DNA of 64,000 bases from Clostridiales bacterium (GTDB lineage: Bacteria; Bacillota; Clostridia; Saccharofermentanales; Saccharofermentanaceae), in NCBI GenBank assembly GCA_017428155.1, contig JAFRRJ010000025.1, forward strand, positions 1 to 64,000, given 5' to 3'. A program made the position numbers and the translations under genes. This document shows positions 2,484 to 32,165 of this stretch, one piece after another; position 1 is the stretch's first letter, and each line of letters begins with the position of its first letter. The notes below the pieces were generated by a model. The model did not search any database, had not been told where the DNA came from, and was given only the letters and a program-made list of their open reading frames with translations.

Positions 2484-5400
2484 ATGAACAGAAAATTTGT
2501 CTTAAGCGCACTGCTGTCCCTGACCGTCGTTTTCGCTGCTACAGCGATTATCGGAGGTATCAAAGTAAAAGCCGAAGGCGATGTTATTGATTCGGGAACC
2601 TGCGGAGAAGAAGTAACCTGGACACTGGACAGTGATTACCAACTTATCATCAGCGGCTCCGGAGTTATGGCCGATTACGAATGGTACGATGATACTCCCT
2701 GGGCAGATTACAGAACGCAAATTACAGGGATCGAGATCGGAGACGGCATCACCAGAATAGGCAATTATGCCTTCTCAGGCTGCACTTCCGTTACTGACGT
2801 TACTATTCCTTCAAGCATCACCTATATCGGTGAGGATGCATTCTATGAAAGCACCGGAATAGAGGATGTTTATCTCAGAGTAACAGATCCTTCCAACTTC
2901 ACATGGAATGAATCGGGAAGAGATGATTTTAAACCAAATAATGATACAACTCTCCACTATTACAGGGGACTCAATTTTGGTGATAAATTGAGCAAAGTCC
3001 GTGCAACATATGTTGATGACCTCTATTTTGAAGAGAATATGTACAATGGCATAATCTGGAAAATCACTTTGTCCGGAGAAATGGAGATAGAGTTCATTGG
3101 TGATATGGAGGATTTCACTCCAGGCGGTGCACCGTGGGCAGATTATGCAGACAGGATCACTTCGATCACGATCTACGACGGCCCGACTTATCTTGGTGCA
3201 TATTCATTTGAAGGCTTTTCTTTGATAACTGAGATCTCTCTTCCGTCCTCCCTGTTAAAAATAGGCGAAGGTGCTTTTAAGGATTGCTCAAATCTTGAAT
3301 ATGTCTATTTTTCTACTAATGTAAAAGAGATCGGAGACAGTGCTTTTGAAGGATGCACAGCACTCGGATCGGGCGACTATGCGAACGGCACTGTGGTCTT
3401 CCCTGAGACTCTTCAGAAGATCGGCAGCAATGCATTTAAGGGTTGCTCAAATCTCACATCATTAGCATTCCCGGCTAATCTGAATTATATCGGTGAAGAT
3501 GCATTCTATCTTTGCACAGGCATTACGACCATCGACTGCACGGTCAAACCCGGCAATCTCACATGGCTGGATTCCAACAGCAATGACTTTATGGATTCAA
3601 AAGGAACCATCTGTTATGTCGGCAGCATCATTGTTGACGACTTTGAAACCAAGTTCAGCGATGTCAACGTTACATTTGAAGGCAAATTCATAGCCGGAGA
3701 CGAAATACCGGGTACAGGTGTCAGTTGGATCCTTGACGGTGACGGAACCTTGTACATCAACGGAAACGGTGATATGCCTAACTACTACGAGCCAACACAG
3801 GTTCCCTGGTACAATTACAAAGACAATATATACAGCATCGTTATCGAAGACGGCATTACCTCTGTAGGCTGGAACGCTTTCAACAGCCATAATAAGGTAT
3901 CGTCAGTTGAGATTCCCGATACAATTACGAACATCGGTCAGCGTTCTTTCCTTGGATGCGGACATATCACATCAATTGATATTCCTGGAAGAGTTACACA
4001 GATTGGCGAGCGTGCTTTCTTCAGCTGCGGAGGACTCAAATCCGTAACAATGGGAAACGATGTAGATAATATCGGAACTGGTGCATTCTCCGGATGCGAG
4101 AGTCTCCAAAGCATCAATCTCTCGAACAACTTGTTTGAAATTTCTGACAGCACATTCTATGAGTGCAAAAGTCTCACATCTATCAATATTCCGAGAAGTG
4201 TTGTTTTTATCGGTCCCAATGCATTTGAACGATCCGGTCTGGTATCCGTATCTATACCTGAAGGAGTTGAGATCATTGACAGATTCGCTTTCCAGAACTG
4301 TTCAGGTCTTGCTTCTGTAACCATCTCATCGACAGTCCGGAATATCGGCTTTGATGCATTCTACGGATGTGATTCCTTAACTGATGTATATTGCTATGCT
4401 TCACCTGATTCTGAAGAATTTAATTGGACAGAAGGCAGCTGCGACGATTTTATCAATGACGGCTCTGACAAGACCAAGTGTCACGTATCCAGTGATGATG
4501 TTGACGCTTTCATAGCAATGTTCTCGACAGGCAATGAGGACACAGACGTCAACGTTGAATTTGTCGGCGATCTTGCTGAGGACATCGGCGAAAAGCTTAA
4601 GGGCTACTCATTAAGTCTTGAAGGCGACATCGGTGTCAACTTCTTCATGAAGCTTGACGAGGATCTCGCTTCAAGCAGCAGTGCCAAGATGGTGTTTACG
4701 ATCTCCAGCATCGACGGCTCCGAATCAAGAACGCAGGAAGTCTACGTTAATCCCCAGTCAAATTCCAAGCTTGCTTATGCAAAGACAGAGGGAGACAATT
4801 ATATCTTCAAGTGCAGAGTCTACGCCAAGGAAATGACATCCTTGATCTCTGCCCAAATAGTTGACGGTGACAGAAAGGGCAACGTCTATACCTACACTGT
4901 CCAGTCTTATGCAAAATATATTCTGAATCACTCCTCTGAATTCGAAGACGAGCAGGAAATAGTTAAGACAATGCTTCACTATGGAACATATACCCAGATG
5001 TACTTTGCCGATTACAACAGTTCTAACTATGCAGACTCAGTAATCGATTACTATGAAGAAGTTCCGATCATCACAGATTATTCAATGCTCAGAGCATATT
5101 CAGGCGACGGTTCTATAGCAGCCGGTGTAAGCTTAAGATTAACATCGGCAAACCTCGTTCTCGATTCTGAGACCATCATGAATCTTAAATTCGCAGGCGC
5201 ATCTGATTATTCAGGTCTTATCTTCAAGCTTAACGATCAGACCAAGCTCTCCTGCAAGATATCAGGTGATACGGCAACAGTAACAGTCCGCAACATCCCT
5301 GCACATAAAATCAATGACGACTATGTCATCTATGTCTACGACGGCAAGACTCTTTTGGGTACCGTTACCTACAGCCCTATGTTCTACTGCTACAACGCTA

Positions 5401-5501
5401 TCGTAAGACCTGAGTCAGAGGACAGAACTCCGATATTAAAGCAGAACGTCAGCGCTTATATCTACTTCTATGAAGCTGCCGTCAATTACATCAACAAATA
5501 A
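2484..5501 (+). CDS. Secreted BspA-like leucine-rich-repeat protein 1
   Basis: 1005 aa from the ATG at 2484, which has a GAGG site and opens directly into a signal peptide ending in K-V-K-A. The frame is open from 2379, but that would bury the signal peptide. The body is built of BspA-type LRR units (PF13306-like, about 23 aa, x-I-P-x-x-x-x-x-I-G-x-x-A-F-x-G-C). They are arranged in three solenoid blocks, each opened by a cap of the form C-G-x-x-V-T-W or similar and a D-Y-x-x-x-x-P-W motif. Residues from about 702 to the end form the domain shared by all five paralogues (G-Y-S-L-S-L-E-G-D). There is no LPxTG, SLH or dockerin motif. LRRs of this type usually bind host or matrix ligands; the ligand here is unknown. 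A 36-aa peptide gene follows 17 nt after the stop. Confidence 0.93.
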   Translation: MNRKFVLSALLSLTVVFAATAIIGGIKVKAEGDVIDSGTCGEEVTWTLDSDYQLIISGSGVMADYEWYDDTPWADYRTQITGIEIGDGITRIGNYAFSGCTSVTDVTIPSSITYIGEDAFYESTGIEDVYLRVTDPSNFTWNESGRDDFKPNNDTTLHYYRGLNFGDKLSKVRATYVDDLYFEENMYNGIIWKITLSGEMEIEFIGDMEDFTPGGAPWADYADRITSITIYDGPTYLGAYSFEGFSLITEISLPSSLLKIGEGAFKDCSNLEYVYFSTNVKEIGDSAFEGCTALGSGDYANGTVVFPETLQKIGSNAFKGCSNLTSLAFPANLNYIGEDAFYLCTGITTIDCTVKPGNLTWLDSNSNDFMDSKGTICYVGSIIVDDFETKFSDVNVTFEGKFIAGDEIPGTGVSWILDGDGTLYINGNGDMPNYYEPTQVPWYNYKDNIYSIVIEDGITSVGWNAFNSHNKVSSVEIPDTITNIGQRSFLGCGHITSIDIPGRVTQIGERAFFSCGGLKSVTMGNDVDNIGTGAFSGCESLQSINLSNNLFEISDSTFYECKSLTSINIPRSVVFIGPNAFERSGLVSVSIPEGVEIIDRFAFQNCSGLASVTISSTVRNIGFDAFYGCDSLTDVYCYASPDSEEFNWTEGSCDDFINDGSDKTKCHVSSDDVDAFIAMFSTGNEDTDVNVEFVGDLAEDIGEKLKGYSLSLEGDIGVNFFMKLDEDLASSSSAKMVFTISSIDGSESRTQEVYVNPQSNSKLAYAKTEGDNYIFKCRVYAKEMTSLISAQIVDGDRKGNVYTYTVQSYAKYILNHSSEFEDEQEIVKTMLHYGTYTQMYFADYNSSNYADSVIDYYEEVPIITDYSMLRAYSGDGSIAAGVSLRLTSANLVLDSETIMNLKFAGASDYSGLIFKLNDQTKLSCKISGDTATVTVRNIPAHKINDDYVIYVYDGKTLLGTVTYSPMFYCYNAIVRPESEDRTPILKQNVSAYIYFYEAAVNYINK

Positions 5502-5518
5502 TGAGCGAGGTGATAATT

Positions 5519-5629
5519 ATGGAACAAAAAGAAAGATATGAATCAGTTGAAATGAACATCATCGCGTTCGATATTCAGGATGTGATCGCGACTAGTTCAA
5601 ACGACGGATGGCCGGAAGAAGGAATCTGA
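5519..5629 (+). CDS. LRR-associated micro-peptide 1 (36 aa)
   Basis: Short reading frame with a GAGG site, starting 17 nt after the stop of LRR protein 1 and followed by a strong terminator. It begins M-E-Q-K-E-R-Y-E-S-V-E-M and contains D-V-I-A-T-S at residues 21-26, then a variable tail. The pattern K-E-x-Y-x-[SA]-V-E and the D-V-I-x-T-S core are shared with the peptides at 9587 and 13514. It has no signal peptide, cysteine or membrane helix. No maturation enzyme lies nearby. Conservation in three paralogous positions is the main evidence that it is real; the function is unknown. Confidence 0.85.
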   Translation: MEQKERYESVEMNIIAFDIQDVIATSSNDGWPEEGI

Positions 5630-5653
5630 CCGGCTAACAGATCTGATCATCAT

Positions 5654-5682
5654 GACGGTGCCTCAACGGCACCGTCTTTTTT
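5654..5682 (+). terminator. Terminator after LRR1/peptide 1
   Basis: GACGGTGCC pairs with GGCACCGTC across a 5-nt loop and is followed by six T residues. It ends the LRR1-peptide transcript. Confidence 0.92.
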
Positions 5683-5781
5683 GCATCAGAGAAATGACGG
5701 GTTTTTTTGGAAGCAATGTTTCTCGAGCTTTCAGAAATATAAAAAATCAGGTCGGTGCACATGGACCTTAAGCCCCTAATA

Positions 5782-5842
5782 TTACAAATAGGATAAATAT
5801 TACAGTTTAGTAGTGTGATTCTCAAGAAGAAGTTATAATATC
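5782..5842 (+). promoter_or_regulatory. Conserved 61-bp upstream element of LRR2
   Basis: A 61-bp block with the same spacing occurs before LRR2, LRR3 and LRR4. It starts TTACAnAnAGGATAAnTATTA and ends AAGAAG-(T/A)-TATAATA. It contains one TATAAT-like box at its right end (5834 here) and, in LRR3/LRR4, a second in the middle. The start codon lies 68-75 nt beyond. No classical TTGACA is present at 17 bp from the right-hand box, so the exact promoter is unclear. Confidence 0.7.
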
Positions 5843-5907
5843 ATCATGGGGTTGAGGGTTCTTCAGCCCGCGAGGTTAGGGTATTTTTTCATAACGGGGA
5901 GTTAACC

Positions 5908-8900
5908 ATGAATAAGAGAAGACTATGGAGCGTCCTGCTCACATTTGCAATTGTTGTTGCAATGGTTTTCGCTGTCGGCGGAATCTCAAGCGCAGACACC
6001 GAACCTGCTACTGTCACACTTAAATCCGGCATCGGATCAGGAGATGACATCGTATTTTCGACTGACAATCCGGATTGCGTAACAAACAGAACGTCTGAAT
6101 GGTTAAGATTTATGTTCCTCAAGACCGATGACGGCTGGTCTTTCAAGCTTGATAGCGTTCTGCCTTCCACTTTCAGCAGCCCGGAACGTTATCCATTTGT
6201 CGGATGGGACGTTGCTGAAAATTACTCCGACACGGTCCTCAATCTTAAGCCCGGCGATAACATAGTTGTTACTGCCGTATGGCAACCTTCCGGAGAGTGC
6301 GGAGCAAACGGCAGTTTTTTATTGTGGCGCCTTGAATCGAACGGAATGCTCAGGATCGTAGGATATGGAAATATGGCGAATTATACGTCATGGGATCCGG
6401 CTCCCTGGTATGACTTCAGAGATCAGATAACACAAGTCGGACTTGCTGATACTGTTACTTCCATCGGTGACTATGCTTTTTGCGGATTTACCGGTCTTAC
6501 AGACTTCATCATTCCCTCAAACATAACTTACATCGGAGAAGATGCGTTCTATGACTGCACTAATATTTCAGATGTATATTGCTATGCTAATCCGGCGAAC
6601 CTGACTTGGAACGACGGAGGCTATGATGATTTCAAGCAGGTGTATTCCTATGATGATATGACCCGCTTGCACATACTGGACGGTTTCTATGAAACCGGAA
6701 ATATTGATGCAAATGTTGTAATTAATTATGACCTTTACAGAGCGGAAGGTTCATGCGGCGATAATGTCACATGGGGAATAGACGGAAACTACAAGCTCTA
6801 TATTCGGGGTAAAGGCGATATGACCGATTACGCTTCTGCAGGAAGTACCCCCTGGTGCAAATATGCCGGTCAGATAAAAGAATTAGAAATTGAGTACAGT
6901 GTTACTTCGATCGGTGATTATGCGTTCGCTGATCTCACAAATTTGGAAAAAGTGGATTACCGGAGAAGCAAGCAGGACTTTACTATCGGTGCATATGCCT
7001 TTAAGGGCTGTTCTTCACTTAAGACGTTCAACAATAACAGCACTGATCCGACAGCTATACTTTACGCAACTTCCATAGGTGATGGCGCATTTGAAGGCTG
7101 CAGTTCGCTGCCGGAGATCCATTTGGCCGCCAAAACCACTTATATCGGCGCTGATGCATTTAAAAACTGCACCGGTTTTACTGAATTCTCGATTCCCGCA
7201 AATGTAACCTATATCGGCGAAGATGCATTTAAGGGATGCACGAACATTTCTCTCGTTAACTGCTATGCGAACCCCGACACGCTTGAGACCTGGGCAGATG
7301 AAGACTGTGATGACTTCATGCCCTCCGGCGCTACAAAGTGCTACGTTGCGTCAAAATACTACTATGATTTCTGCGATATTTTCTCTCATGTAAATATCAG
7401 TTTTGCTTCACACACGATCGATAACGGCGGATTCTGCGGAAACAATGCAACATATTTTATTGACGGTGACGGTACGCTCTATGTAAACGGCACCGGCCCC
7501 ATGGCTGACTATAATTCAAACAATGATACACCCTGGGACCAGTATAGAAAAATGGTCACCAAGATCGTAATTGCTGAAGGCATTACCACGATCGGCGAAA
7601 ATGCATTCTGCGAATTCAACAATCTCTTAACGGTTGAGATCCCCTCAACTGTAACCAGTATTGGAGACTGGGGATTCGGAAATGCTTTCGCTATGGAACC
7701 GCTTACCATTCCTTCCACAGTCAAATCAATCGGAGATCATGCTTTCAACTGCGTTAACTTTGATTCCATTATTATCTCGGAAGGTGTTGAGCGCATCGGA
7801 AAATATGCATTTGCCGAGACTTTCCTCAAATCGGTAACCGTACCTGCCTCCGTAACATATCTTGGAGAAGGTGCTTTCGAGGAATCCCAACTCGAATCCG
7901 TAACCATCCTCGCTAATATTTCGAAAATCGAGGAGGCGGCTTTTTATTGCTGCAGCAAGCTTTCGTCTGTCACTCTTCCCGAAAGTGTCAAAACAATCGG
8001 CACCGGTGCTTTCTATAATTCCGGTCTTACCACTGTTGATTTTCTTGACGGCGTGGAAACAATAGATATATTTGCATTCTCGTGTTGCGAGAATCTGTCA
8101 TCGGTCATAATTCCCGATACAGTAACCACTATAGATGATTCCGCTTTTTACGGGAACAAAAACCTTGTTTCAGTAACGCTTCCTTCCAGTTTGACCTTTT
8201 TAGGCGAAAGCGCTTTTCAGGATTCAGGTCTTAAATCGATCACCATCCCCGGCAATATCAAAACGATCAGCAAGTCTGCTTTTGCCGAAAGCAAAGATCT
8301 CATGAACGTCACTATACTTAACGGTGTTGAGAAGATTGATGACTATGCATTCTCCGGCTGCAAAAATCTTGTTACGGTAACGATTCCTGCCAGTGTTAAA
8401 TATATCGGAGACGATGCGTTCTGGAACTGTACCAGAGTAACCGACGTATACTGCTACGCAGTCCCTGATGATGATTTTGATTGGCCTGAGGGAAGATTCG
8501 ATGATTTCAGCAGAAACTCTTCAGCCAGAACAAAGTGCCATGTATGCAGTGAGTATCTGGATACATATCTTGACAGATTCTACTATAAGGTCAACGTAGA
8601 CTTCACGGGCGATCTCGTTCCGAGTATCGGAGAGACTCTCAAAGGTTATTCTCTGAGTCTTGAAGGCGACATCGCAGTTAACTTCTATATGGACCTTGAT
8701 GAAACCCTTGCTGCAAGCGATACCGCAAAGGTCGTATTCACCATCTCAAGTCTCGACGGCAGCAAGACAAAAACACAAACAGTCTATGTCAACCCTCAGT
8801 CCGACGCCAACAGGAACTCAGCATATATCGAAGACGGATATTATGTCTTCAAATGCAGAGTCGCAGCAAAGGAAATGACATCGATCATAACTGCCCAGAT

Positions 8901-9576
8901 GGTCGACGGCAACTCAAAGGGAAATAAATACGAGTATTCTGTTCAGAAATACGGACAATTCATATTGAATCATTATTATATTGCAAAATATGAAGACGCG
9001 AAGGAAATCGTAAAAGCCATGCTCAACTATGGTGCATACTCGCAGCTTTACTTCAATTACAATCTTGAAAATCTTGCCAACTCCGTCTTTGAATATGAAT
9101 ACGAGCGTGAAGTAGACATGATCGATGTATCTGAACTCAGAGCATTCTCCGGCAGCACTGTAGTCGGTCCATGCGGTCTCAGACTTAAGAGCGCCAACCT
9201 TGAGCTCGAGTCAGAGACAGTACTGAATCTCTATTTTACAGACGTCGAGGGCTGTGATCACCTGAACTTCAAGCTTGATGACGGAACTGAAGAAGGCAAG
9301 GTCCTCCCCTGCAAATTCTATGATGACGGCACGGGTAAGACGATCGCAAGAGTAACGATCAGGAATATCCCTGCTCAATCAATAAACAACGACTTCAAGA
9401 TCAATGTTTACGAAGGCACGGGTTATGCCGGTACCATTACCTACAGTCCGATGAACTACTGCTACAATGTAATAAGCAGACCGGTAACCGCAACCAGAAC
9501 AGAGGCATTGAAGTTAAATGTCAGTGCGTATATACTGTTCTATCAGAAGGCAGCAGAATATGTTAGCAATATATGA
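5908..9576 (+). CDS. Secreted BspA-like leucine-rich-repeat protein 2
   Basis: 1222 aa, the largest of the five. The start has GGGGAG 8-13 nt upstream. The signal peptide is about residues 1-30 (ending I-S-S-A). Residues 31-130 form an extra N-terminal module ending F-V-G-W-D-V...G-D-x-I-V-V-T-A-V-W, which resembles the InlB/Listeria-Bacteroides beta-repeat. Several BspA-type LRR blocks follow, each opened by a C-G...W cap and the D-Y..P-W motif and closed by a D-V-Y-C-Y-A segment. The family C-terminal domain runs from about 908 to the end. A peptide gene begins 10 nt after the stop, with the SD directly after the TGA, which suggests translational coupling. No cell-wall anchor motif was seen. 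Confidence 0.93.
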   Translation: MNKRRLWSVLLTFAIVVAMVFAVGGISSADTEPATVTLKSGIGSGDDIVFSTDNPDCVTNRTSEWLRFMFLKTDDGWSFKLDSVLPSTFSSPERYPFVGWDVAENYSDTVLNLKPGDNIVVTAVWQPSGECGANGSFLLWRLESNGMLRIVGYGNMANYTSWDPAPWYDFRDQITQVGLADTVTSIGDYAFCGFTGLTDFIIPSNITYIGEDAFYDCTNISDVYCYANPANLTWNDGGYDDFKQVYSYDDMTRLHILDGFYETGNIDANVVINYDLYRAEGSCGDNVTWGIDGNYKLYIRGKGDMTDYASAGSTPWCKYAGQIKELEIEYSVTSIGDYAFADLTNLEKVDYRRSKQDFTIGAYAFKGCSSLKTFNNNSTDPTAILYATSIGDGAFEGCSSLPEIHLAAKTTYIGADAFKNCTGFTEFSIPANVTYIGEDAFKGCTNISLVNCYANPDTLETWADEDCDDFMPSGATKCYVASKYYYDFCDIFSHVNISFASHTIDNGGFCGNNATYFIDGDGTLYVNGTGPMADYNSNNDTPWDQYRKMVTKIVIAEGITTIGENAFCEFNNLLTVEIPSTVTSIGDWGFGNAFAMEPLTIPSTVKSIGDHAFNCVNFDSIIISEGVERIGKYAFAETFLKSVTVPASVTYLGEGAFEESQLESVTILANISKIEEAAFYCCSKLSSVTLPESVKTIGTGAFYNSGLTTVDFLDGVETIDIFAFSCCENLSSVIIPDTVTTIDDSAFYGNKNLVSVTLPSSLTFLGESAFQDSGLKSITIPGNIKTISKSAFAESKDLMNVTILNGVEKIDDYAFSGCKNLVTVTIPASVKYIGDDAFWNCTRVTDVYCYAVPDDDFDWPEGRFDDFSRNSSARTKCHVCSEYLDTYLDRFYYKVNVDFTGDLVPSIGETLKGYSLSLEGDIAVNFYMDLDETLAASDTAKVVFTISSLDGSKTKTQTVYVNPQSDANRNSAYIEDGYYVFKCRVAAKEMTSIITAQMVDGNSKGNKYEYSVQKYGQFILNHYYIAKYEDAKEIVKAMLNYGAYSQLYFNYNLENLANSVFEYEYEREVDMIDVSELRAFSGSTVVGPCGLRLKSANLELESETVLNLYFTDVEGCDHLNFKLDDGTEEGKVLPCKFYDDGTGKTIARVTIRNIPAQSINNDFKINVYEGTGYAGTITYSPMNYCYNVISRPVTATRTEALKLNVSAYILFYQKAAEYVSNI

Positions 9577-9586
9577 GGAGATAAGC

Positions 9587-9703
9587 ATGAAACATAAGGA
9601 ACTTTACAGAGCAGTTGAGCTGGACGTGATCACATTCGCTTCTGAGGACGTTATCGTTACGAGCGACAGCGACAACACTACTCCGTTCGAAGATGAAAAC
9701 TAA
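9587..9703 (+). CDS. LRR-associated micro-peptide 2 (38 aa)
   Basis: Begins M-K-H-K-E-L-Y-R-A-V-E-L and contains D-V-I-V-T-S at residues 21-26, followed by an acidic tail. The GGAG of its ribosome site abuts the stop codon of LRR2. An in-frame ATG-free extension upstream exists but is explained by overlap with the LRR2 coding region. It aligns without gaps through residue 26 with the peptides after LRR1 and LRR3. Its function and fate (secreted, modified or regulatory) are not evident from sequence. Confidence 0.87.
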   Translation: MKHKELYRAVELDVITFASEDVIVTSDSDNTTPFEDEN

Positions 9704-9737
9704 TAGTCGCTTAAAGGATTCAGATCAACATTTCAGA

Positions 9738-9767
9738 GCCCTCTGCCGTTTGGCGGAGGGCTTTTTT
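9738..9767 (+). terminator. Terminator after LRR2/peptide 2
   Basis: GCCCTCTGCC pairs with GGCGGAGGGC (one G-U pair) over a short loop and is followed by T residues. The 46 bp from 9701 through the left arm are identical to 17271-17316 after LRR4. Confidence 0.93.
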
Positions 9768-9909
9768 GTGTTCCGTTTTCGGGTGCCGGCCTTAACAGCT
9801 GCTGTCACCGTGTGTAACATTCCCCGGCCAGGGTCTCACCGTTTTCGTGGCGCATGAAGTAACGTTTTCGAGCTTCTCAAAACAGTCATTCTTATCCATG
9901 TCCTTTATG
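9768..9909. other. Non-coding spacer between LRR2 and LRR3
   Basis: No credible gene was seen. The stretch carries one TTTTCGAG octamer (9865-9872) inside an imperfect palindrome-like context and ends at the conserved upstream element of LRR3. Confidence 0.7.
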
Positions 9910-9970
9910 TTACATATAGGATAATTATTATAATTTTATGGTGCATTTCTCAAAAAGAAGTTATAATATC
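9910..9970 (+). promoter_or_regulatory. Conserved 61-bp upstream element of LRR3
   Basis: Second copy of the LRR2-LRR4 upstream element. TATAAT-like boxes lie in the middle (about 9929-9934) and at 9962-9967. The ATG follows 75 nt later, and GGAG lies 9 nt before it. Confidence 0.72.
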
Positions 9971-10041
9971 GGCATGAGCCGAGGGTTACCCCGGTATGTT
10001 AGTTTTGGGATCATATAAAGGCGAAGCGCGGAGATTTTACC

Positions 10042-13000
10042 ATGAGAAAAAAGCATTTATGGAGCACCCTGCTCACTTTCGCTGCGGTAGTGACAACGGT
10101 CATTGCATTCAGCAGCATGACAGTATTGGCAGATGGAGACAACATAAGCCTTTCAATAGATGAATTTACTATTGAACACAGCGGCTATTCTTTTGTTGAT
10201 TACCAGATCACCAATATCGAATTCGAAGAATACTGGGACGAATATGACACGGGGCGTGTCTATAATCCCGATCAGGTCTACTTCAAATTCTTCGGCGATA
10301 CGCTTAAAGACGGGAGTAACAGCATTGATTTTGAAGTGACTGATAATGATTACTACCATAGTCAGATATGCTCAAGCGGTTACGGCTTAAACGGTGTAGG
10401 GCAATCATGCCCCTTATATCTTTATGTCGATCCTGACGCTTACAGGGCAGCAGAACCCGGCAGATATACCGGAAAGTTAAAGATTGTCCCTCAATGGTAT
10501 GAAAACTATGATTATGCTTATGAAGGTGACCCGATCTATATTGATATTTCAATGGTCATTAAAGAAAAGGCCGGCGAAAGTATCGAGTGGTATTTTGATG
10601 ACAGCATGAAGGTTCTGACCATAGACGGCACAGGAGCGATGAATGATTTCGACACCGCAGAACTTGCACCATGGTATGGTATAAAGGATGAGATCGACCG
10701 CGTTGCAGTCATTGGCGGCGTTACTTATGTCGGCAGCAATTCATTTGCCGGCTGTTCAGCTCTTAAGACTGTATATCTTTCAAAAACTGTTACTTCCATA
10801 GCTTCAAATGCGTTTGCAGGATGCACCGGTGTAAACAAGGTGACCATTTGCAGCAATCCCGGTGATCTTTCCTGGAATCTCAGCGGTTTTGGTTCCTCAA
10901 CAACATTCAAGGTTCCGAGAAGGTTTTTAACAGCATATCAGAACAAGTATTCCGGCAAGACTTTTGAAGAATATATTCTCAAAGAAAACAGTTCATGCGG
11001 TTCCAATGCAAGCTGGATGATCGATGGCGACAACGTACTGGTCTTCAGCGGAACAGGAAGCATAACCGACTACGGTTCTTATGACAATACACCCTGGTAC
11101 GACTATCGTAACAGCATTGATGAGATCGTTATTTGTGACGGGATCGAAAGCATCCCTTCTTATGCGTTCTACCAGTTTACAAAACTGACTTCAATCTCAA
11201 TTGCCGACAGCGTAACAAAAATCGGGAAATATGCTTTCAGCGGCTGTAATAAGCTGGGATCCATCACACTCCCCGCAGGTCTTTCTGAGATTGATTATGC
11301 AGCTTTCGAATTGTGTAATAACCTTAAGACCATAGTAATTCCGGAAGGCGCAACCACTATCGGTGACAGAGCATTCCTGAATTGTACCGGCATCGAATCC
11401 GTCGTCATTCCTGAAAGTGTTACCTCCATTGGCAACAGCGCTTTTTCCGGCTGCAGTAATCTTGTATCCGTAAATATACCAAGTGGAATTAAACGCATCG
11501 AAAATTACACGTTCGCAGAATGCGCTTCATTAACATTGATCGACATTCCCGCCGGCGTGAAAGAAATAGGCAGTTATGCTTTCTATGAGTGCTACAAACT
11601 CGAAAAAGCCGATCTTCCTCAAGGATTAGAAAAGCTGGGGTATGGAGTATTTGACGACTGCTATAGTCTCAAATCCATCTCAATTCCGTCAGCAATAACA
11701 GAGCTTGGCTACGAGTTGTTCCAGAATTGTGACAGCTTAACTGAGGTAACCATTCCTTCAACTGTTGCCAGCATAGGAACAAACACTTTTTATTCATGTG
11801 ATAATCTCAAAAAAGTAATTATAGAAGAAGGTATAATTAGTATCGGTCAGAATGCTTTTTTGGGATGCAGTAAACTCGAGACGGTATCGCTCCCTGACAG
11901 CCTTTGGAGTATTGGCGGCAGCGCATTCAGTGGATGCACGTCATTAACCGGTGTTGTTATTCCTGAAGGCGTGCAGAGTATAGGGAATTATTCATTCTAT
12001 GAATGCGATTCTCTTACATCAATAACCATCCCCTCTTCCGCAGAGGTCTCAATATATGCATTTGCATGTTGCGACGGATTAAAAACCGTTGTTTTCGCCG
12101 ACGGATGTACTACGATTCCGGAAGGCATATTCCAAAACTGTACTTCTCTTGAATCCGTAACGATCCCTGACAGTGTCACTTATATCGGATACTCCGCTTT
12201 CTATGGATGCAGCGCTCTTGAATCAATTACGATTCCCGGCAGTGTTACGGAGCTCGGTAACTTGGCATTCCAGTACTGCGACAATCTGAAACATGTTACT
12301 CTCGAAGACGGTATTAAGATCATAGGCTCCCAGTCATTCTACGGCTGCTCAGCTCTTGGGACTATTATCATTCCCAGCACAGTAAACACTATCGGATCAT
12401 ATGCATTCTCTTACTGCAGTTCTATGACTGATGTTTACAGCTTTGCTGATCCGGTCGTTCTGAACTGGTATAGCTGCAGCTCCTGTTTCAAAAATGAAGG
12501 ATCTACAAAATGCCATGTCCTTAATTACTATCTCCAGGATTATAGATCATATCACGGCGATCTCAATGCTATCTATGTCGGAGATCTAAACAGCATTAAC
12601 ATGGGCGCAGGAACACATCTTTACGGTTATTCCCTGAGCCTCGACGGCAGCATCGGCGTTAACTTCTACATGACACTTGATCCCAATTTAAGAGAACCCG
12701 GCAGCAATGCCTACATGCTGTTCACGGTGAACGGTTATACTCAGAAAGTTCCCGTTAAGGATATTACTCCCGACGACCAAGGATACTATGTCTTTAAGTG
12801 TAAGATCGCCGCAAAGGAAATGGCTGACGTCATCAATGCAAGGCTCTACATTGATGATTCCATCCCGACTGATGCCGAATACAATTTCTGTGTAAGGCAG
12901 TATGCAAGCTATATCCTGAAGCGCCCCGCTCTCTACAGCAACGAAACAGTAAACCTGGTCAAAGCTATGCTGAACTACGGTGCTTACTCACAGCTCTATT

Positions 13001-13503
13001 TCAACCACAACACATCTAACCTTGCAAACTCGATCCTGCCTTATAACGAGCAGACAGTCGAAATAATTCACGAAGGCATGCTCAGACCTTATACGGGTAA
13101 CGTATCGGTCAACGGAAGACTGACTTTTTACAGTGCGAGCCTCTCGACCGAATCGGAAACTGTCATGAACTTCTACTTCAAAGATTACGAAGGCTGCGAT
13201 CACCTGAACTTCAAACTCGATGACGGTACTTCGGAAGGCAAGGTACTCGAACATTCCTTCTCAAACGGCGCTCTAAAGGTAAGAGTTCCCAACATCCCTG
13301 CCCAGTGTGCCGGCGATGACTACAAGATCGATGTCTACGAAGGCAGTGTGCTCATTGGCTCTGTTACATACAGTCCTGTAAACTATTGCTACAATGTAAT
13401 ACACAGAGAGATCACGCCTACCAGAACAGAGGCATTGAAACTTGAAGTCAGTGCATATATACTGTTCTATCAGAGAGCATTAGATTATGTTAGAAGCTTA
13501 TAA
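10042..13503 (+). CDS. Secreted BspA-like leucine-rich-repeat protein 3
   Basis: 1153 aa. Signal peptide about 1-31 (ending T-V-L-A). Residues 32-175 form a paralogue-specific beta-rich module without LRR character, not recognised further. Two cap-plus-LRR blocks follow, the second a very long run of about 23-aa BspA-type repeats with consensus x-I-P-x-x-V-x-x-I-G-x-x-A-F-x-x-C. The shared C-terminal domain spans about 858-1153. The last 50 codons are nearly identical in DNA to LRR2, suggesting recent duplication or conversion. The stop codon TAA abuts the GGAG of the downstream peptide gene. The protein is likely exported and surface-exposed; the anchoring mode is unknown. Confidence 0.93.
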   Translation: MRKKHLWSTLLTFAAVVTTVIAFSSMTVLADGDNISLSIDEFTIEHSGYSFVDYQITNIEFEEYWDEYDTGRVYNPDQVYFKFFGDTLKDGSNSIDFEVTDNDYYHSQICSSGYGLNGVGQSCPLYLYVDPDAYRAAEPGRYTGKLKIVPQWYENYDYAYEGDPIYIDISMVIKEKAGESIEWYFDDSMKVLTIDGTGAMNDFDTAELAPWYGIKDEIDRVAVIGGVTYVGSNSFAGCSALKTVYLSKTVTSIASNAFAGCTGVNKVTICSNPGDLSWNLSGFGSSTTFKVPRRFLTAYQNKYSGKTFEEYILKENSSCGSNASWMIDGDNVLVFSGTGSITDYGSYDNTPWYDYRNSIDEIVICDGIESIPSYAFYQFTKLTSISIADSVTKIGKYAFSGCNKLGSITLPAGLSEIDYAAFELCNNLKTIVIPEGATTIGDRAFLNCTGIESVVIPESVTSIGNSAFSGCSNLVSVNIPSGIKRIENYTFAECASLTLIDIPAGVKEIGSYAFYECYKLEKADLPQGLEKLGYGVFDDCYSLKSISIPSAITELGYELFQNCDSLTEVTIPSTVASIGTNTFYSCDNLKKVIIEEGIISIGQNAFLGCSKLETVSLPDSLWSIGGSAFSGCTSLTGVVIPEGVQSIGNYSFYECDSLTSITIPSSAEVSIYAFACCDGLKTVVFADGCTTIPEGIFQNCTSLESVTIPDSVTYIGYSAFYGCSALESITIPGSVTELGNLAFQYCDNLKHVTLEDGIKIIGSQSFYGCSALGTIIIPSTVNTIGSYAFSYCSSMTDVYSFADPVVLNWYSCSSCFKNEGSTKCHVLNYYLQDYRSYHGDLNAIYVGDLNSINMGAGTHLYGYSLSLDGSIGVNFYMTLDPNLREPGSNAYMLFTVNGYTQKVPVKDITPDDQGYYVFKCKIAAKEMADVINARLYIDDSIPTDAEYNFCVRQYASYILKRPALYSNETVNLVKAMLNYGAYSQLYFNHNTSNLANSILPYNEQTVEIIHEGMLRPYTGNVSVNGRLTFYSASLSTESETVMNFYFKDYEGCDHLNFKLDDGTSEGKVLEHSFSNGALKVRVPNIPAQCAGDDYKIDVYEGSVLIGSVTYSPVNYCYNVIHREITPTRTEALKLEVSAYILFYQRALDYVRSL

Positions 13504-13513
13504 GGAGATTAAT

Positions 13514-13636
13514 ATGGAGTTCAAAGAATCATACAAGTCAGTCGAGATGGATGTGATCACATTCTCTTCCACGGATGTCATCGTAACAAGCTCTGGTGAC
13601 AACAACGAGTTGTATCCGGAGCAAAATGGCGGCTGA
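13514..13636 (+). CDS. LRR-associated micro-peptide 3 (40 aa)
   Basis: Starts 10 nt after the LRR3 stop with a GGAG site. It begins M-E-F-K-E-S-Y-K-S-V-E-M, has D-V-I-V-T-S at residues 21-26 and ends in a divergent tail with G-G at the C-terminus. The first 26 residues align without gaps with the two other peptides; the tails after T-S differ in length and sequence. This conserved-head/variable-tail layout recalls a leader and core, but no modifying enzyme or exporter is near, so that is only an analogy. Confidence 0.87.
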   Translation: MEFKESYKSVEMDVITFSSTDVIVTSSGDNNELYPEQNGG

Positions 13637-13655
13637 ACTTAAGTTTACTTTCCCA

Positions 13656-13684
13656 AGCCCTCTGCTTCAGCGGAGGGCTTTTTT
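13656..13684 (+). terminator. Terminator after LRR3/peptide 3
   Basis: AGCCCTCTG / CGGAGGGCT stem (one G-U pair) with a CTTCAG loop and a T tract. It is related to the terminators after LRR2 and LRR4. Confidence 0.92.
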
Positions 13685-13869
13685 ATTTGTGGTTTCCCGG
13701 ACAGAGCAGTTAACCCCTAAAAAGTCGGACGCAGAGTTGAGCATTGGAAAAGGTCCTTCCGGCAGCGTCCGCAATAGCAATACTTACAAGGGCTGTCTCA
13801 AAAAGCCGACGGATAGTATCGCATGCAGGCAAAATATATGCCGTTTATGACCTTCTCGCCGGCCTAATG
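13685..13869. other. Non-coding spacer between LRR3 and LRR4
   Basis: No gene was recognised. It holds an unpaired copy of the GGCTGTCTCA terminator-arm sequence (13791-13800), perhaps a degraded terminator, and ends at the conserved upstream element. Confidence 0.6.
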
Positions 13870-13930
13870 TTACAAACAGGATAAATATTATAATTTAATG
13901 GTGTATCAATTAAAAAGAAGATATAATACA
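13870..13930 (+). promoter_or_regulatory. Conserved 61-bp upstream element of LRR4
   Basis: Third copy of the element. TATAAT occurs in the middle and at 13922-13927. The start codon at 14001 lies 74 nt beyond the second box. Confidence 0.72.
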
Positions 13931-14000
13931 TTTAAAGCCGTGAGGGATCTCGGTCTGGTAGGTTTGTTTATTTTCACGCAAAGAATTGTGGGGTATCACC

Positions 14001-17000
14001 ATGAAAAAGAAAACTTGGAGCACTATGCTCACTCTTATGTTCGTCGTGGCGGCAATTATGGCCATAAGCGGGATTACAGTAAATGCTGATCCGATAGCTG
14101 AAGGACAGGCCGGCGATGATGTTCACTGGAGTATCGAAAACGGCATTCTGACGATAAGCGGTTCAGGACCGATGTACGATTATACGCCATGTGAACAGCC
14201 GTGGTATTACTTCGATGCTCAGGAACTCGTAATCGAAAACGGTATAACATACATTGGCAGCAACGCTTTCTTTGATTATAACCACTTTGATTCTGTCACC
14301 ATTCCTGACAGTGTAACCGCTATCGGAAATGACGCATTCAACGGATGTGGTAATCTTAAGACCGTAAACATCCCCGACAGCGTAACAGATATAGGTTCGG
14401 GAGTTTTTTCTCAGACAGGCATAGAATCGATCGTTATTCCTGATGGTGTGACGAGCATTAAGAAATCAACTTTCTATCAATGCACCTCTCTTGAAGATAT
14501 ATATATTCCTGACAGCATAACCGATATCGGTGATTATGCATTTTCCGGTTGCACTTCACTTAAATCTATCGTGATCCCCGAGGTTATCTCAAGCATTGGC
14601 ACATATGCATTCCAGCGCTGCTCATCTCTTGATGATGTATATTTCCTTCCTATCAACAGTTTCTCATGGGACACTTCCAAAGCGGGCTTTAAAGCAAACA
14701 AGGGCACAAAATTCCACGTCCGCGGTAACGCTATTTATTCGTTTTATGATAGTTATCTCGGAGATGCCAACCTGACACTGGTTGATGACCTTGCAGGCAG
14801 AAACGCCCTCTGGAGCTATGACCCTGATACCACTACTCTTACGATCAACGGCACAGGCGACATGCTCAATATTTTTATGGGACCTTATGGTCAGCCCTGG
14901 AATAAATACTCAAACGAACTCACCACTATAGTTATCAGCAATGGAATCACATCTATCGGGGATTACAGTTTTTCATATTTTGATGAAATCACATCTGTTA
15001 CTATTCCCGCAAGCGTGACTCATATCGGTATCAGTGCATTCCACGATTGCGATAATATCACGTCTGTTAATATGCCCGGTAACATAACCGGGATCTCTGA
15101 CTATGCTTTCTATAGCTGCAACGCTCTGGAAAGTGTTACTTTCGGCGGAAATCCTGAATACATTGGTGATTATGCTTTCTATTTCTGCGAAAAAATTGAA
15201 TCGATCGATCTTTCAGATGGTCTTCAAAGCATCGGCAGCAATGCATTTTGCAGTTGCAGCAGTCTCCAGTCAATAGATATTCCTGAAAGCGTTACCAGCA
15301 TCGGGGAGTCCGCATTTGCATACTGCAGATCCATGGAGATGGATGGTCTTCCTTCCGGATTGACGAGTTTGGGAAACAGTGCATTTTCGCACTGCGAAAA
15401 AATAACTTCTGTTGTTATACCTGAAGGTTTAACTGTCATCCCCAACTACGCATTTAATTATTCAGGATTAACTGAAGTCACCATTCCTGAGGGTGTGACT
15501 AGGATCGGCGAGGGCGCTTTCAGAAACTGCAAAATAGTATCACTGGTTATTCCGTCAACGGTACAGACATGGGGTGCTCAATCCTTCTACGAGAACGAAA
15601 GCCTTACCACATTAACACTTACTGACGGCCTCACATGCATTGGTGTTGATGCATTCGAAGCCTGTGATGCTCTTACCGGACTCAATATTCCGGGAAGTGT
15701 TAAGAGTGTCGGCGATCATGCATTCTCCAGATGCACCTCTCTCGGAACACTAACACTCAACGAGGGAATCGAAAGTATCGGCTACGGTTCATTCAGCATT
15801 TGCCAGGCACTTGAATATGTAAAACTTCCGTCCACTCTGGCAACAATGGGCAATTTCCCGTTTAATGGCTGTGATAATCTTAAGACTATCGTATTTTCCG
15901 ATGGCATAACGACCGTTCCGGATTATATGTTATCAGCCTGCTCAAGTCTTGAGACAGTAATACTCCCCGGCAGCATAACAAGCATCGGCGAAGGTGCTTT
16001 CTCCGGATGCGAATCACTTACATACGTAAATATTCCTAACGGTATTAAGCAAATTAAGAATTCCACTTTTGAATCCTGCAGTTCACTTACTACCATCACC
16101 ATACCGGAAAGTGTGGAGTTGATCTGTGATAACGCTTTCCACGGCTGCATAAGCATGACTGACGTATACTGCTATGCTTATCCTTATTCCAACCTGTGGA
16201 ATGACAGTAACAGCGATGAATTCAAATACCCTGTCAGTTCAGAAGATGAAAAGACAGTGTGCCATGTTCCCACTGACTATCTCATGGGTTACACATCTTA
16301 CTGCAACTCCGTTAATGTTAAGTTCGTCGGCGGCGCAGAAGAGATCAACATGGGCAACGGCAACTCACATCTCTACGGTTACTCGCTGAGCCTCGATGGC
16401 AACATCGGAGTCAACTTCTACATGTCCCTTGACGAAGCAGTCACAGGAAAAAACAGCACAGCATTTATGCTCTTTACCGTTGACGGCAGAACACAGAAGG
16501 TACAGGTCAAGAAGCTTACCGCAAATGATGACGGCTATTACATTTTCCGCTGTAATGTAGCTGCCAAGGAAATGTGTGATCAGATCATTGCCCAGTTCTA
16601 TCTCGCTGATGGCATTGAATCAGGTCCTTCTTACTCCTTCACAGTAAGAGATTATGCAGCTTATATCCTTAACCACAGAGCCAGCGGCGAGATCGGTCAC
16701 GATCCTAAGGTCGTAGCTCTTGTAGAGGCAATGTTAAATTATGGTGCATATTCTCAGATCTACTTCGGATACAACACCGGCAATCTTGCTAACTCCATCC
16801 TTGATGAACCTGACCGTACAGTTTCTGCCGTACCTGTAGATAAGATCGATCAGTACGTCTACACAGGTGTCACACAATTCAACGCAGGCAACAGGTTCAT
16901 CTCCTTTATCAGCGCATCGCTTTCAACTGAATCCGAACTCGTCTTGAACTTCTATTTCAAGGGTCTGCCTGTTGATACAGTTGTTACGTGCAACGGCAAG

Positions 17001-17261
17001 AAACTGAAGACCAGACTGTCAACTGACGGCTCTTATACCAAAGTTTCCATTACCGGCATTAAGATTCAGGACATCGATGAATACTTCACGATATCTTTCA
17101 CTTATGGCGGTGTTGACTGCAGCCTCACATACAGCCCGATGAACTACTGCTACAACGTTGTAACAAGACCTTTGTCAGCTACACGTACGCAGGAACTGAA
17201 GGATGAGGTCGCAGCACTCTACTGGTTCTACAAGGCAGCAGAAAACTATATTGCTAATTAA
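14001..17261 (+). CDS. Secreted BspA-like leucine-rich-repeat protein 4
   Basis: 1086 aa from ATG 14001, chosen over 13986 because GGGG lies 8 nt upstream and the signal peptide (M-K-K-K-T-W..., ending T-V-N-A) begins there. The LRR region starts almost immediately, with cap segments near the N-terminus and near residue 260 and long runs of about 23-aa BspA-type repeats. The shared C-terminal domain spans about 789-1086. It is more divergent in its last 100 residues than LRR2/3. No peptide gene follows; instead, 9 nt after the stop begins a 46-bp sequence identical to the end of the LRR2-peptide transcript, as if a peptide gene had been deleted. Confidence 0.93.
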   Translation: MKKKTWSTMLTLMFVVAAIMAISGITVNADPIAEGQAGDDVHWSIENGILTISGSGPMYDYTPCEQPWYYFDAQELVIENGITYIGSNAFFDYNHFDSVTIPDSVTAIGNDAFNGCGNLKTVNIPDSVTDIGSGVFSQTGIESIVIPDGVTSIKKSTFYQCTSLEDIYIPDSITDIGDYAFSGCTSLKSIVIPEVISSIGTYAFQRCSSLDDVYFLPINSFSWDTSKAGFKANKGTKFHVRGNAIYSFYDSYLGDANLTLVDDLAGRNALWSYDPDTTTLTINGTGDMLNIFMGPYGQPWNKYSNELTTIVISNGITSIGDYSFSYFDEITSVTIPASVTHIGISAFHDCDNITSVNMPGNITGISDYAFYSCNALESVTFGGNPEYIGDYAFYFCEKIESIDLSDGLQSIGSNAFCSCSSLQSIDIPESVTSIGESAFAYCRSMEMDGLPSGLTSLGNSAFSHCEKITSVVIPEGLTVIPNYAFNYSGLTEVTIPEGVTRIGEGAFRNCKIVSLVIPSTVQTWGAQSFYENESLTTLTLTDGLTCIGVDAFEACDALTGLNIPGSVKSVGDHAFSRCTSLGTLTLNEGIESIGYGSFSICQALEYVKLPSTLATMGNFPFNGCDNLKTIVFSDGITTVPDYMLSACSSLETVILPGSITSIGEGAFSGCESLTYVNIPNGIKQIKNSTFESCSSLTTITIPESVELICDNAFHGCISMTDVYCYAYPYSNLWNDSNSDEFKYPVSSEDEKTVCHVPTDYLMGYTSYCNSVNVKFVGGAEEINMGNGNSHLYGYSLSLDGNIGVNFYMSLDEAVTGKNSTAFMLFTVDGRTQKVQVKKLTANDDGYYIFRCNVAAKEMCDQIIAQFYLADGIESGPSYSFTVRDYAAYILNHRASGEIGHDPKVVALVEAMLNYGAYSQIYFGYNTGNLANSILDEPDRTVSAVPVDKIDQYVYTGVTQFNAGNRFISFISASLSTESELVLNFYFKGLPVDTVVTCNGKKLKTRLSTDGSYTKVSITGIKIQDIDEYFTISFTYGGVDCSLTYSPMNYCYNVVTRPLSATRTQELKDEVAALYWFYKAAENYIAN

Positions 17262-17307
17262 GATTTGATGTAATAGTCGCTTAAAGGATTCAGATCAACA
17301 TTTCAGA

Positions 17308-17333
17308 GCCCTCTGCTTTGGCGGAGGGCTTTT
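17308..17333 (+). terminator. Terminator after LRR4
   Basis: GCCCTCTGC/GCGGAGGGC stem followed by TTTTA. It is almost the same as the terminator after peptide 2, but with a loop two bases shorter and a weaker T tract. Confidence 0.88.
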
Positions 17334-17533: not shown

Positions 17534-20500
17534 ATGAAAAAGAACAAACTGTTGATCGCACTTCTATCTTTATCATTCGTTACCGCAACAGCTTTTGCTG
17601 CAGGCGGAATCGCGGTTTCCGCTGAAGATGCCGATTTGATCGACAGCGGTGTATGCGGAGAGAATCTGACCTGGACACTTGATAAGGATTATAAGCTGAC
17701 AATAAACGGAACAGGTGCCATGACTGATTTCGTAGAGATAGACGCACCGTGGTTAATCTACGCCCATGATATAACGGCAATCGACATCGGAGAAGATGTA
17801 ACAACTATCGGAGATTACGCTTTTGATGACTGTTGCAATTTCTCTACGATTACTATCCCTGAAGGAATAACTTATATTGGCAGAGATGCATTTTATTGTT
17901 GTTTTTGTGTAACCGATGTGTGGTGCTATGCTGACACCGATTCCCTTATCTGGGATGAAGCCGATTACGATGATTTCAAAGATGACGGCTCAACAGTTTG
18001 CCATGTCCGCTCCGGTGATTATCCGTCGTGTTTGTATGGAGTCAACGTAACTGTTGTACAGGACATACACATTGCAGGCGGAACATGCGGTGATGATGTG
18101 ACATGGTATCTGGACTACAATAATTATCTCCATATTTCCGGCACCGGTGCTATGTATAACTATAGCTACGGAACAGCTCCCTGGTATGATTACAGAGACA
18201 GCATAACCGCCTTAGGCCTGGATTACGGCGTTACTTCCGTTGGCGATTACGCGTTTGCAGGTATTTCCACGCTCGGATCTTTTAACCTTTCGGACAGTGT
18301 TAAAAACATTGGTGATGGAGCATTTAAAGACTGCACAGGTATTACACAGGTTTATTCTCCGTCCGGTCTTCTTACGATCGGCAACAGCGCTTTCGAGGGC
18401 TGCACCGGAATCACGGGAGTAAATATCAGTAACAGTCTGACAAGTATCGGAGAAAACGCATTCAAAAACTGCTCAAGCATCACCTCCACTATAGTGATCC
18501 CTAGAAATGTGACTTATATAGGTGAGGATGCTTTCTATGGCTGTACACAGGTTTACAATGTCTCCTGCTATGCCAATCCGCGTGGTTTACTCTGGTGTGA
18601 CACTGATCATAATGATTTTAAGGAAGACGGATCGGTAATATGTGATGTATCTTACTTCTACTATGATGATTTCGTTTCTATGCTTAGTCATGTTAACGTC
18701 ACCTTTGCACAGGCCTCGCTTGAGGAGGGTTTGTGCGGCGATGGTGTTACCTGGCAATACGACGGTGCCGGCCAGCTGCACATAAGCGGAAACGGAGCTA
18801 TGTATGATTTAGTCACCTTTAGTGATGCCACCTATAGCAGGTTCAGAGATGATATAACTTCCGTAACTATTGAAGATGGCGTAACCAACATTGGTGACTG
18901 CTCATTCTATGGTTGTAAAAATCTTAATTCTCTGGTAATTCCGGGAAGTGTCAGCAGCATTGGAAATGCTGCATTTTATGGATGCAGCGGATTAACGGAA
19001 CTTGTAATCACGGGCAACATAAAGACTATTGGAAAATCTGCTTTTTGCAGCGACAACTTCACATCTCTTGTTATTTGTGATGGTGTAGAGAACATTGGTG
19101 ATGGTGCTTTCTCTTACTGCAGAAACCTTAAGACTGTATCTATGGCCAACAGCGTGGAAGCACTTGGAACTGACGCATTCCATGGATGTTCAAAACTGGA
19201 GACAATAACATTGTCATACAAACTGACCACGATAGAAGAAGGTACCTTCGCCGAATGTACTTCTCTGAAAACAATAACGCTTCCTTCAGGTATTAAAGAG
19301 ATCGGTCCTTATGCCTTCTCCAATTCAGGCATCACTTCTATTAATCTTCCTGACGGCCTGGAAACCATCGAAAAATTCGCATTCTCCAGCGCTGAAAATC
19401 TGACATCCGTTACGATTCCCGGCAACGTCACTACTGTGGGGGAAAATGCTTTCGCCTGGTGTTCCGCCCTTAATACGGTTTTCATACCAAATAGCGTAGA
19501 AGAATTAGAATTAGGTGAAGCCGTTTTTATGGAGAGCGGAATCCAACGCATTGTTATCCCGGGCTGCGTCTCCGAGATCCCATACTGTGCATTTGTTTCA
19601 TGCAAAGATCTTGTTAACGTTATCATATTAAATGGAGTTAAAGAGATAGCCACCTACGCTTTTGCAGACTGCGAGAATCTGACCACTGTTACCATTCCTG
19701 CCAGCATGGAATATATATCGTCTGATTCATTCATTGAATGCCCAAATGTGAGTGATGTATATTGCTACGCGGAACCGAACAAGAATTTTGATTGGTATGA
19801 CGGTAACCATGACGACTTCCGCACGGGATCTGAGAGGACCATTTGCCACGTCTATCCCGGTTACTATAATGAGTACGTAAGAAGATTCGAATATGATGAT
19901 GAGTCTGGAGTTAATGTTGTCTTCGCCAGTGATCTTACTGACAGCATCGGTGAACAGCTGGAGGGTTATTCGCTTAGCCTTGAAGGCGATATCGGCGTCA
20001 ACTTCTACATGAGGGTCTCTCCTGCTCTTACATTAAGCAGCACGGCAAAGGTCGTATTCACTATATCAAGCATCGACGGCAATGAGACGAGGACACAGAC
20101 AGTCTACGTAAATCCTCAGGATGATCCCAACCTTGCATATGCTGTTTTCGAGGACGACTATTACATCTTCAAGTGCAAAGTTGCAGCCAAGGAAATGACG
20201 TCTATCATTACGGCTCAAATGACAGACGGTGACCTCAGCGGCAATTGCTACACTTATTCCGTCCAGCAATATGCCCAGTACATTCTTGAACACCCCGCCC
20301 TCTACCCCGATGAACAGGACCTCGTGAAGGCTATGCTGAACTACGGAACATGGGCTCAGGAGTACTTTATATACAACTTTGATAACATAGCCAACAATAT
20401 CATACAGGGCAATTCCGATACCTTCATCCGCGGAGTACGCTCATTTATCGACGACTATCAATTCAACGGCAACACCTACATCGGTGACACCGGAATCCGT

Positions 20501-27106: not shown

Positions 27107-27128
27107 ATTTTGTCTCCTGTATTAGTGC

Positions 27129-27152
27129 TTTTCCGCTTTACAGGGCGGAAAA
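27129..27152 (-). terminator. Hairpin between lipoprotein genes A and B
   Basis: TTTTCCGC / GCGGAAAA arms with a short loop. It has no long T tract, so it may be an attenuating or mRNA-stabilising hairpin rather than a full terminator. Confidence 0.45.
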
Positions 27153-27196
27153 CCGGTTGCGAACTGTTCGGGCTGCTGTTTTAGTTTCCGTCCTGT

Positions 27197-29629: not shown

Positions 29630-29656
29630 TTCATTATCCCCGCTTTTGCTTATGCT

Positions 29657-32098: not shown

Positions 32099-32165
32099 TT
32101 TTATTATCCCCGTTTTTATTATTCCGGCCTGCCTTAAGAAGACATCCGGTCTTTTCTTAAGCGGT

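Follow-up and report, generated by a model that had tools for sequence, protein, structure and literature searches.

Three micro-peptide genes (P1, P2 and P3) stand directly behind genes for secreted BspA-type leucine-rich repeat (LRR) proteins in the window studied here, that is, the whole stretch of 64,000 nucleotides at positions 1 to 64,000 of contig JAFRRJ010000025.1 (assembly GCA_017428155.1), from a Clostridiales bacterium of the Saccharofermentanaceae. Sequence comparison indicates that their products are very probably precursors of ribosomally synthesized and post-translationally modified peptides (RiPPs) similar to the linear polyphosphorylated peptides (LPPs), a class described in 2026 without an assigned role (Popov et al., Nat Commun, May 2026, PMC13381572). 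Gene order and co-occurrence further lead us to lean, by a modest degree, towards the resulting phosphopeptide acting as a partner of the surface protein encoded beside it, which carries a shared C-terminal domain (CTD). The explanation taken as a whole, in which LPP-like precursors are matured in trans, exported and joined to the CTD protein, is in our judgement reasonably likely.

The initial annotation of this DNA, made from its letters alone, described a cassette in which three of five paralogous LRR genes are each followed within 10–17 nt by a gene for a peptide of 36–40 aa, and the coordinates agree with this: the peptides are 36, 38 and 40 aa long, and the stop-to-start gaps are 17 nt for P1 and 10 nt for both P2 and P3. 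Its further readings also hold, namely a 26-residue head that aligns without gaps among P1–P3, a Shine-Dalgarno sequence (GGAG) adjoining the LRR stop codon before P2 (TGA, then GGAG) and P3 (TAA, then GGAG), the lack of cysteine, signal sequence or membrane helix in P1–P3, and a terminator behind each peptide gene, the three hairpins in question being the top three terminator-like sites of a regional scan. The spacing of each precursor directly behind a CTD gene probably couples its translation to that of the upstream gene, and peptide and surface protein would thus be made together.

As a description of the partner, the LRR cassette was too narrow, although the coupling of the genes is real. 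A CTD of approximately 290 aa, for which there is no Pfam model, is common to all five proteins encoded upstream of peptides in this genome, and its carriers include LRR, beta-helix and DUF4838 proteins. Two further peptides of the same genome lie 11–14 nt behind a beta-helix protein and 65–80 nt behind a protein that is judged from its sequence, rather than by a Pfam run, to be of the DUF4838 type, in which the CTD is N-terminal to the enzyme part. Since the CTD is the part common to the upstream proteins, the LRR is incidental to the cassette, and by sequence comparison it is the CTD that defines the upstream partner. The initial annotation had reasoned that heads occurring at random positions without an LRR neighbour would undo the cassette; heads without an LRR neighbour do occur, yet their non-LRR neighbours are not random and bear the CTD, so that the objection touches the letter of the proposal and not its spirit.

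The association extends well beyond this genome. In relatives, the gene directly upstream of the peptide encodes a CTD protein in 54 of 68 occurrences (the loci being partly redundant), and genuine peptides and CTDs co-occur in exactly the same 10 of 60 genomes. A class-wide search with the CTD only, into which finding peptides was not built, added four genomes, in three of which new members of the peptide family, from three other families of bacteria, were encoded downstream of the CTD gene (e.g., MKELYEEPVIEIVHFQPEDIITNDSVPGGDDIETGGDEW in G138 and MEKYEPAELEIIFYVEDVVTASEGGDTDTPWL in G170). The predicted model of the CTD is confident (pLDDT 91) and consists of two units, each a beta-sandwich with a helix pair; a fold search with it returned only uninformative immunoglobulin matches (TM ~0.2), and comparison of its sequence with the PDB gave no convincing relative.

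A profile of P1–P3 found only two more good matches in the 2.96-Mb genome itself; relatives yielded dozens, similarly placed. The family has no match in Pfam or NCBIfam. All 30 of 30 family sequences have Tyr7, Asp21 and Ser26, and the tails (5–22 residues, acidic, mean net charge -3.4) differ among paralogues. Purifying selection on the head, a check proposed at the outset, is evident in a ratio of nonsynonymous to synonymous substitution rates (dN/dS) that pools to ~0.20 over 31 pairs, a value somewhat biased by preselection of the pairs at ≥70% identity; between P1, P2 and P3, dN is 0.20–0.32 and dS is above 1.8 or saturated. That the small open reading frames (ORFs) are chance or decaying sequence is hardly credible against this selection, a head conserved over several families, the Shine-Dalgarno sequences and the terminators, even though one copy, behind LRR4, has apparently been lost. 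There, an ATG (17268-17270) leads into a 46-nt stretch that exactly repeats positions 9701-9746, the stop codon and 3' flank of P2, with a P2-type terminator at the end, and the LRR4 peptide gene has probably been lost, leaving this remnant.

Two matches of the first profile were rejected as family members, one being a 156-aa frame in G005 and the other an unrelated 479-aa frame in G047 that resembles a replicative DNA helicase. Separately, longer ORFs with a similar head (124–156 aa from stop to stop, e.g., MKFRPEMEVVRFSSEDVIAASGG) were seen at L019 (in G005) and L142; precursors with long cores may therefore exist.

A search with the PqqD-type domain uncovered the candidate enzymes. In this genome, a stand-alone RiPP recognition element (RRE), an HprK-like kinase, a SipW-like (SpI) peptidase and an ATP-binding cassette (ABC) exporter form an operon on contig C47. 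In two relatives (G033 and G020), the genes run in the order CTD protein, peptide, RRE (85 aa), HprK-like kinase (~235 aa), SpI-like peptidase (~141 aa) and ABC exporter, the peptide stop overlapping the RRE start in the former (TAATG) and lying ~2 nt from it in the latter, and CTD protein and peptide stand beside the same enzymes at several named loci. A RiPP-like partner of the exported protein, one of the roles floated in the initial annotation, thus pointed in the right direction, whereas the chaperone role offered beside it gained no support of its own in its plain version. A peptide that stays unmodified in the cytoplasm, as a chaperone or translation-coupled assembly factor of the secreted protein encoded upstream, would fit the coupled placement and the missing signal sequence, but this reading leaves unexplained the leader-like motif matching LPP and lasso RRE ligands, the abutting RRE gene and the nesting of CTD genomes within kinase genomes described below, and LRR4 and LRR5 persist without a peptide; we regard it as improbable.

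The RRE is a discrete PqqD-type domain (PF05402, 37.6 bits, above the cut-off), and its profile matched the lasso RREs TbiB1 (E 0.001) and TfuB1 in the PDB, 9x8z not being among the matches. Its N33 and D70 are conserved in 40/40 and 39/40 sequences and carry the same numbers as the residues by which LppB holds the leader kink and Tyr, an equivalence by numbering alone. The predicted kinase model adopts a PEPCK/HPr-kinase fold and matches structures of both enzymes; Walker A (SGTGKST) is at least 95% conserved, and Pfam Hpr_kinase_C matches with E 0.077 only. The peptidase matches archaeal-type signal peptidase models (E 1.7e-8, below the curated cut-off), and its predicted residues Ser22, His61 and Asp76 are at least 95% conserved, with a Ser22–His61 spacing of 39 that equals that of Ser29–His68 in LppS. 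The exporter matches MsbA_rel (E 1.8e-64). A scan of named genomes with the kinase yielded 450 relatives, of which 80 were retained for locus analysis, mostly rumen Saccharofermentans-like bacteria and Ruminococcus (including R. flavefaciens) with some Lachnospiraceae; at these 80 loci, many of them cut by contig ends, a kinase was counted in 74, ABC exporter in 51, SpI in 44, RRE in 40 and nucleoside triphosphate (NTP) transferase in 28, and a motif-bearing ORF in 29 (a few being weak matches), several with the canonical YxxP.

These four components (discrete RRE, HprK-like kinase, SpI/SipW-like leader peptidase and MsbA-like exporter) are those of the LPP pathway, whose precursors are likewise short and combine a conserved Tyr motif at the N-terminal side with a variable tail and a conserved Ser. 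In LPPs, a YxxP leader is bound by the RRE, which presents the precursor to the SpI-like enzyme for cleavage, the kinase places phosphates on one Ser and accepts neither Thr nor Tyr in its stead, and the class is marked by the leader YxxPxVLxHQxIxFETxxS, a polyphosphorylated core Ser and leader cleavage after position -1 (Popov et al., 2026). In the micro-peptides, the Tyr, hydrophobic and Ser positions are kept and FET is not, and the invariant Ser, close to where the LPP phosphosite lies, follows the Tyr by 19 residues, compared with 18 in LppA. The systems differ in setting: LPP precursors lie inside capsule loci and were sought at most 5 kb from the cluster, in a paper whose main text mentions neither Clostridia nor surface proteins (Popov et al., 2026), whereas the precursors described here are scattered behind CTD surface proteins, and their hosts are rumen Clostridia. 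Our literature search on a link between Clostridial surface proteins and RiPPs found the LPP paper alone.

By analogy with LPP biochemistry, the head would serve as a leader whose Tyr7-x-x-[V/A/C/L/E or P]-x-[I/L/M/V] docks on the stand-alone RRE; the invariant Ser26 would be phosphorylated by the HprK-like kinase, the precursor cut near D-V-I by the SipW-like serine peptidase, and the short acidic phosphorylated tail released through the MsbA-like exporter. A single enzyme set, here that on C47, would serve precursors scattered over the genome in trans, and the product would act together with the Sec-exported CTD protein at the cell surface as its ligand, tether or maturation partner, a dedicated surface ligand or tether being the likeliest of these roles. 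The peptide might instead be a bait that brings RRE and kinase to the nascent CTD protein, itself the modified target, as probable translational coupling and the 1:1 gene order could suggest; this is very unlikely, as LppK acts on the precursor core (Popov et al., 2026), CTD proteins appear to be Sec-exported, and the peptide's invariant Ser would go unexplained. Extending the preferred LPP-like scheme, we propose more tentatively, and short of favouring it, a general bacterial arrangement of RiPP-assisted display: each CTD-bearing protein would be made along with a short precursor, all precursors would be matured and exported by one shared enzyme set, and the phosphorylated RiPP, as dedicated partner, would bind or tether the CTD on the cell surface.

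Class-wide, among 147 genomes, the kinase was found in 24 and the CTD in five, all five lying within the 24 (p 8e-5), and the peptide profile matched 7 of 15 kinase-positive and 0 of 17 kinase-negative genomes (Fisher p ~0.002, calculated by hand). Given this nesting, the dependence appears to run from CTD proteins to the enzyme set and not vice versa. The greater abundance of kinase systems also means that a CTD protein is not required for the product to exist, and the LPP-like RiPP could be an independent secreted signal or antimicrobial for which co-transcription with a surface protein sets only the timing; the enzyme set and motif are the same on this reading, and the class has no assigned function. 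We consider this unlikely, though the most serious competitor, since timing alone hardly explains why peptide genes recur so closely behind members of one domain family at so many unlinked loci, neither a receptor nor an immunity gene was seen alongside, and the tails vary among paralogues.

Several observations weigh against the preferred explanation of LPP-like precursors and their CTD partners. The C47 operon is unlinked to the window, and the NTP transferase (PF14907), a gene of LPP clusters that is present at some related kinase loci as counted above, is absent from this genome. Most peptides of this genus have V/A/C/E/L in place of the Pro of YxxP, and LppB binds less well when the leader carries P-13A (Popov et al., 2026), a point tempered by relatives, several Ruminococcus loci among them, that retain YxxP beside the same kinase. 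Approximately 40% of CTD genes, LRR4 and LRR5 among them, have no adjacent peptide, and the CTD is therefore not strictly in need of its own; conversely, the large proteins ahead of some Ruminococcus peptides lack the CTD. Part of the loci in the adjacency tests had already been identified via the peptide or kinase. Finally, G019 (97% complete; loci L018, L027 and L035) has CTDs and peptides with no kinase or RRE detected, which could reflect an assembly gap, a loss or a different enzyme set.

As a separate observation, kinase-side peptides at four Ruminococcus loci (L102, L105, L117 and L126) follow large proteins with another shared C-terminal segment (KYTWTK..YYIRSYV.Y...), which is perhaps, by its sequence, a second class of partner domain.

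Other phosphopeptide and kinase systems were also compared. Phosphorylated lasso peptides of the paeninodin type likewise combine an RRE-binding leader motif, an HprK-like kinase and an exporter, but no B2 leader peptidase (PF13471) above the cut-off was found in nine genomes tested, and none of the gene families that recur near the kinase is an evident lasso enzyme. Lasso membership was rejected on the lack of PF13471 (the B2 cysteine leader peptidase) in this genome; a macrolactam cyclase (PF00733) was not apparent in the operon, no genome-wide search for it having been made. The SynChlorMet cassette (ScmC) and the HPr-rel-A system (TIGR04352/TIGR04353) similarly pair an HprK-like kinase with a PqqD-like protein, but the profile matches are weak and far below curated cut-offs, and no radical SAM gene was seen in the four-gene operon. 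The upstream proteins of the window belong among the BspA-type LRR surface proteins, with the CTD as the common part.

Gene order thus ties likely LPP relatives to large surface proteins at many loci in several Clostridial families, and this association with proteins sharing one unnamed domain makes LPP function directly testable. If correct, the proposal would assign a first concrete role to the LPP class and add many precursors missed by searches confined to biosynthetic clusters. It would also establish a new domain of secreted proteins and suggest that a modified peptide serves rumen bacteria in handling their surface proteins.

Table 1. Coordinates of the LRR, micro-peptide and associated features in the window.
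Feature	Positions	Strand	Details
LRR1, BspA-type LRR (PF13306)	2484..5501	+	Sec-type signal (by eye, as for the other upstream proteins); CTD 4602-5489
P1 micro-peptide, 36 aa, MEQKERYESVEMNIIAFDIQDVIATSSNDGWPEEGI	5519..5629	+	head 1-26 with motif Tyr7, Ser26
Hairpin 3' of P1, terminator-like	5654..5676	+	regional terminator scan
LRR2 (PF13306)	5908..9576	+	CTD 8644-9561
P2 micro-peptide, 38 aa, MKHKELYRAVELDVITFASEDVIVTSDSDNTTPFEDEN	9587..9703	+	
Hairpin 3' of P2, terminator-like	9735..9764	+	regional terminator scan
LRR3 (PF13306)	10042..13503	+	CTD 12625-13488
P3 micro-peptide, 40 aa, MEFKESYKSVEMDVITFSSTDVIVTSSGDNNELYPEQNGG	13514..13636	+	
Hairpin 3' of P3, terminator-like	13655..13680	+	regional terminator scan
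LRR4 (PF13306), no peptide gene	14001..17261	+	CTD 16377-17249
Probable remnant of peptide gene behind LRR4	17268..17333	+	sequence identity to P2 flank
LRR5 (PF13306), no peptide gene	17534..20860	+	CTD 19964-20848

All five tandem LRR proteins of the window match LRR_5 (Table 1). A similar block precedes LRR2, LRR3 and LRR4 (5750-5908, 9895-10042 and 13855-14001), reading GTTACA-A-AGGATAA-TATTA... and then AAGAAG-TATAATA; not evident at LRR1 or LRR5, it suggests a promoter and regulator common to these three genes. The window had no Rfam match to any structured RNA. Elsewhere on the minus strand, four tandem genes at 24677-34586 encode proteins of 806–813 aa, two of which were tested, one carrying a solute-binding-protein domain (PF13416) and the other having no Pfam match, and an LppM-domain protein (PF21946) encoded at 511-1413 has at its C-terminal end a stretch with, as read from the sequence, a very high content of Ala, Pro and Gly.

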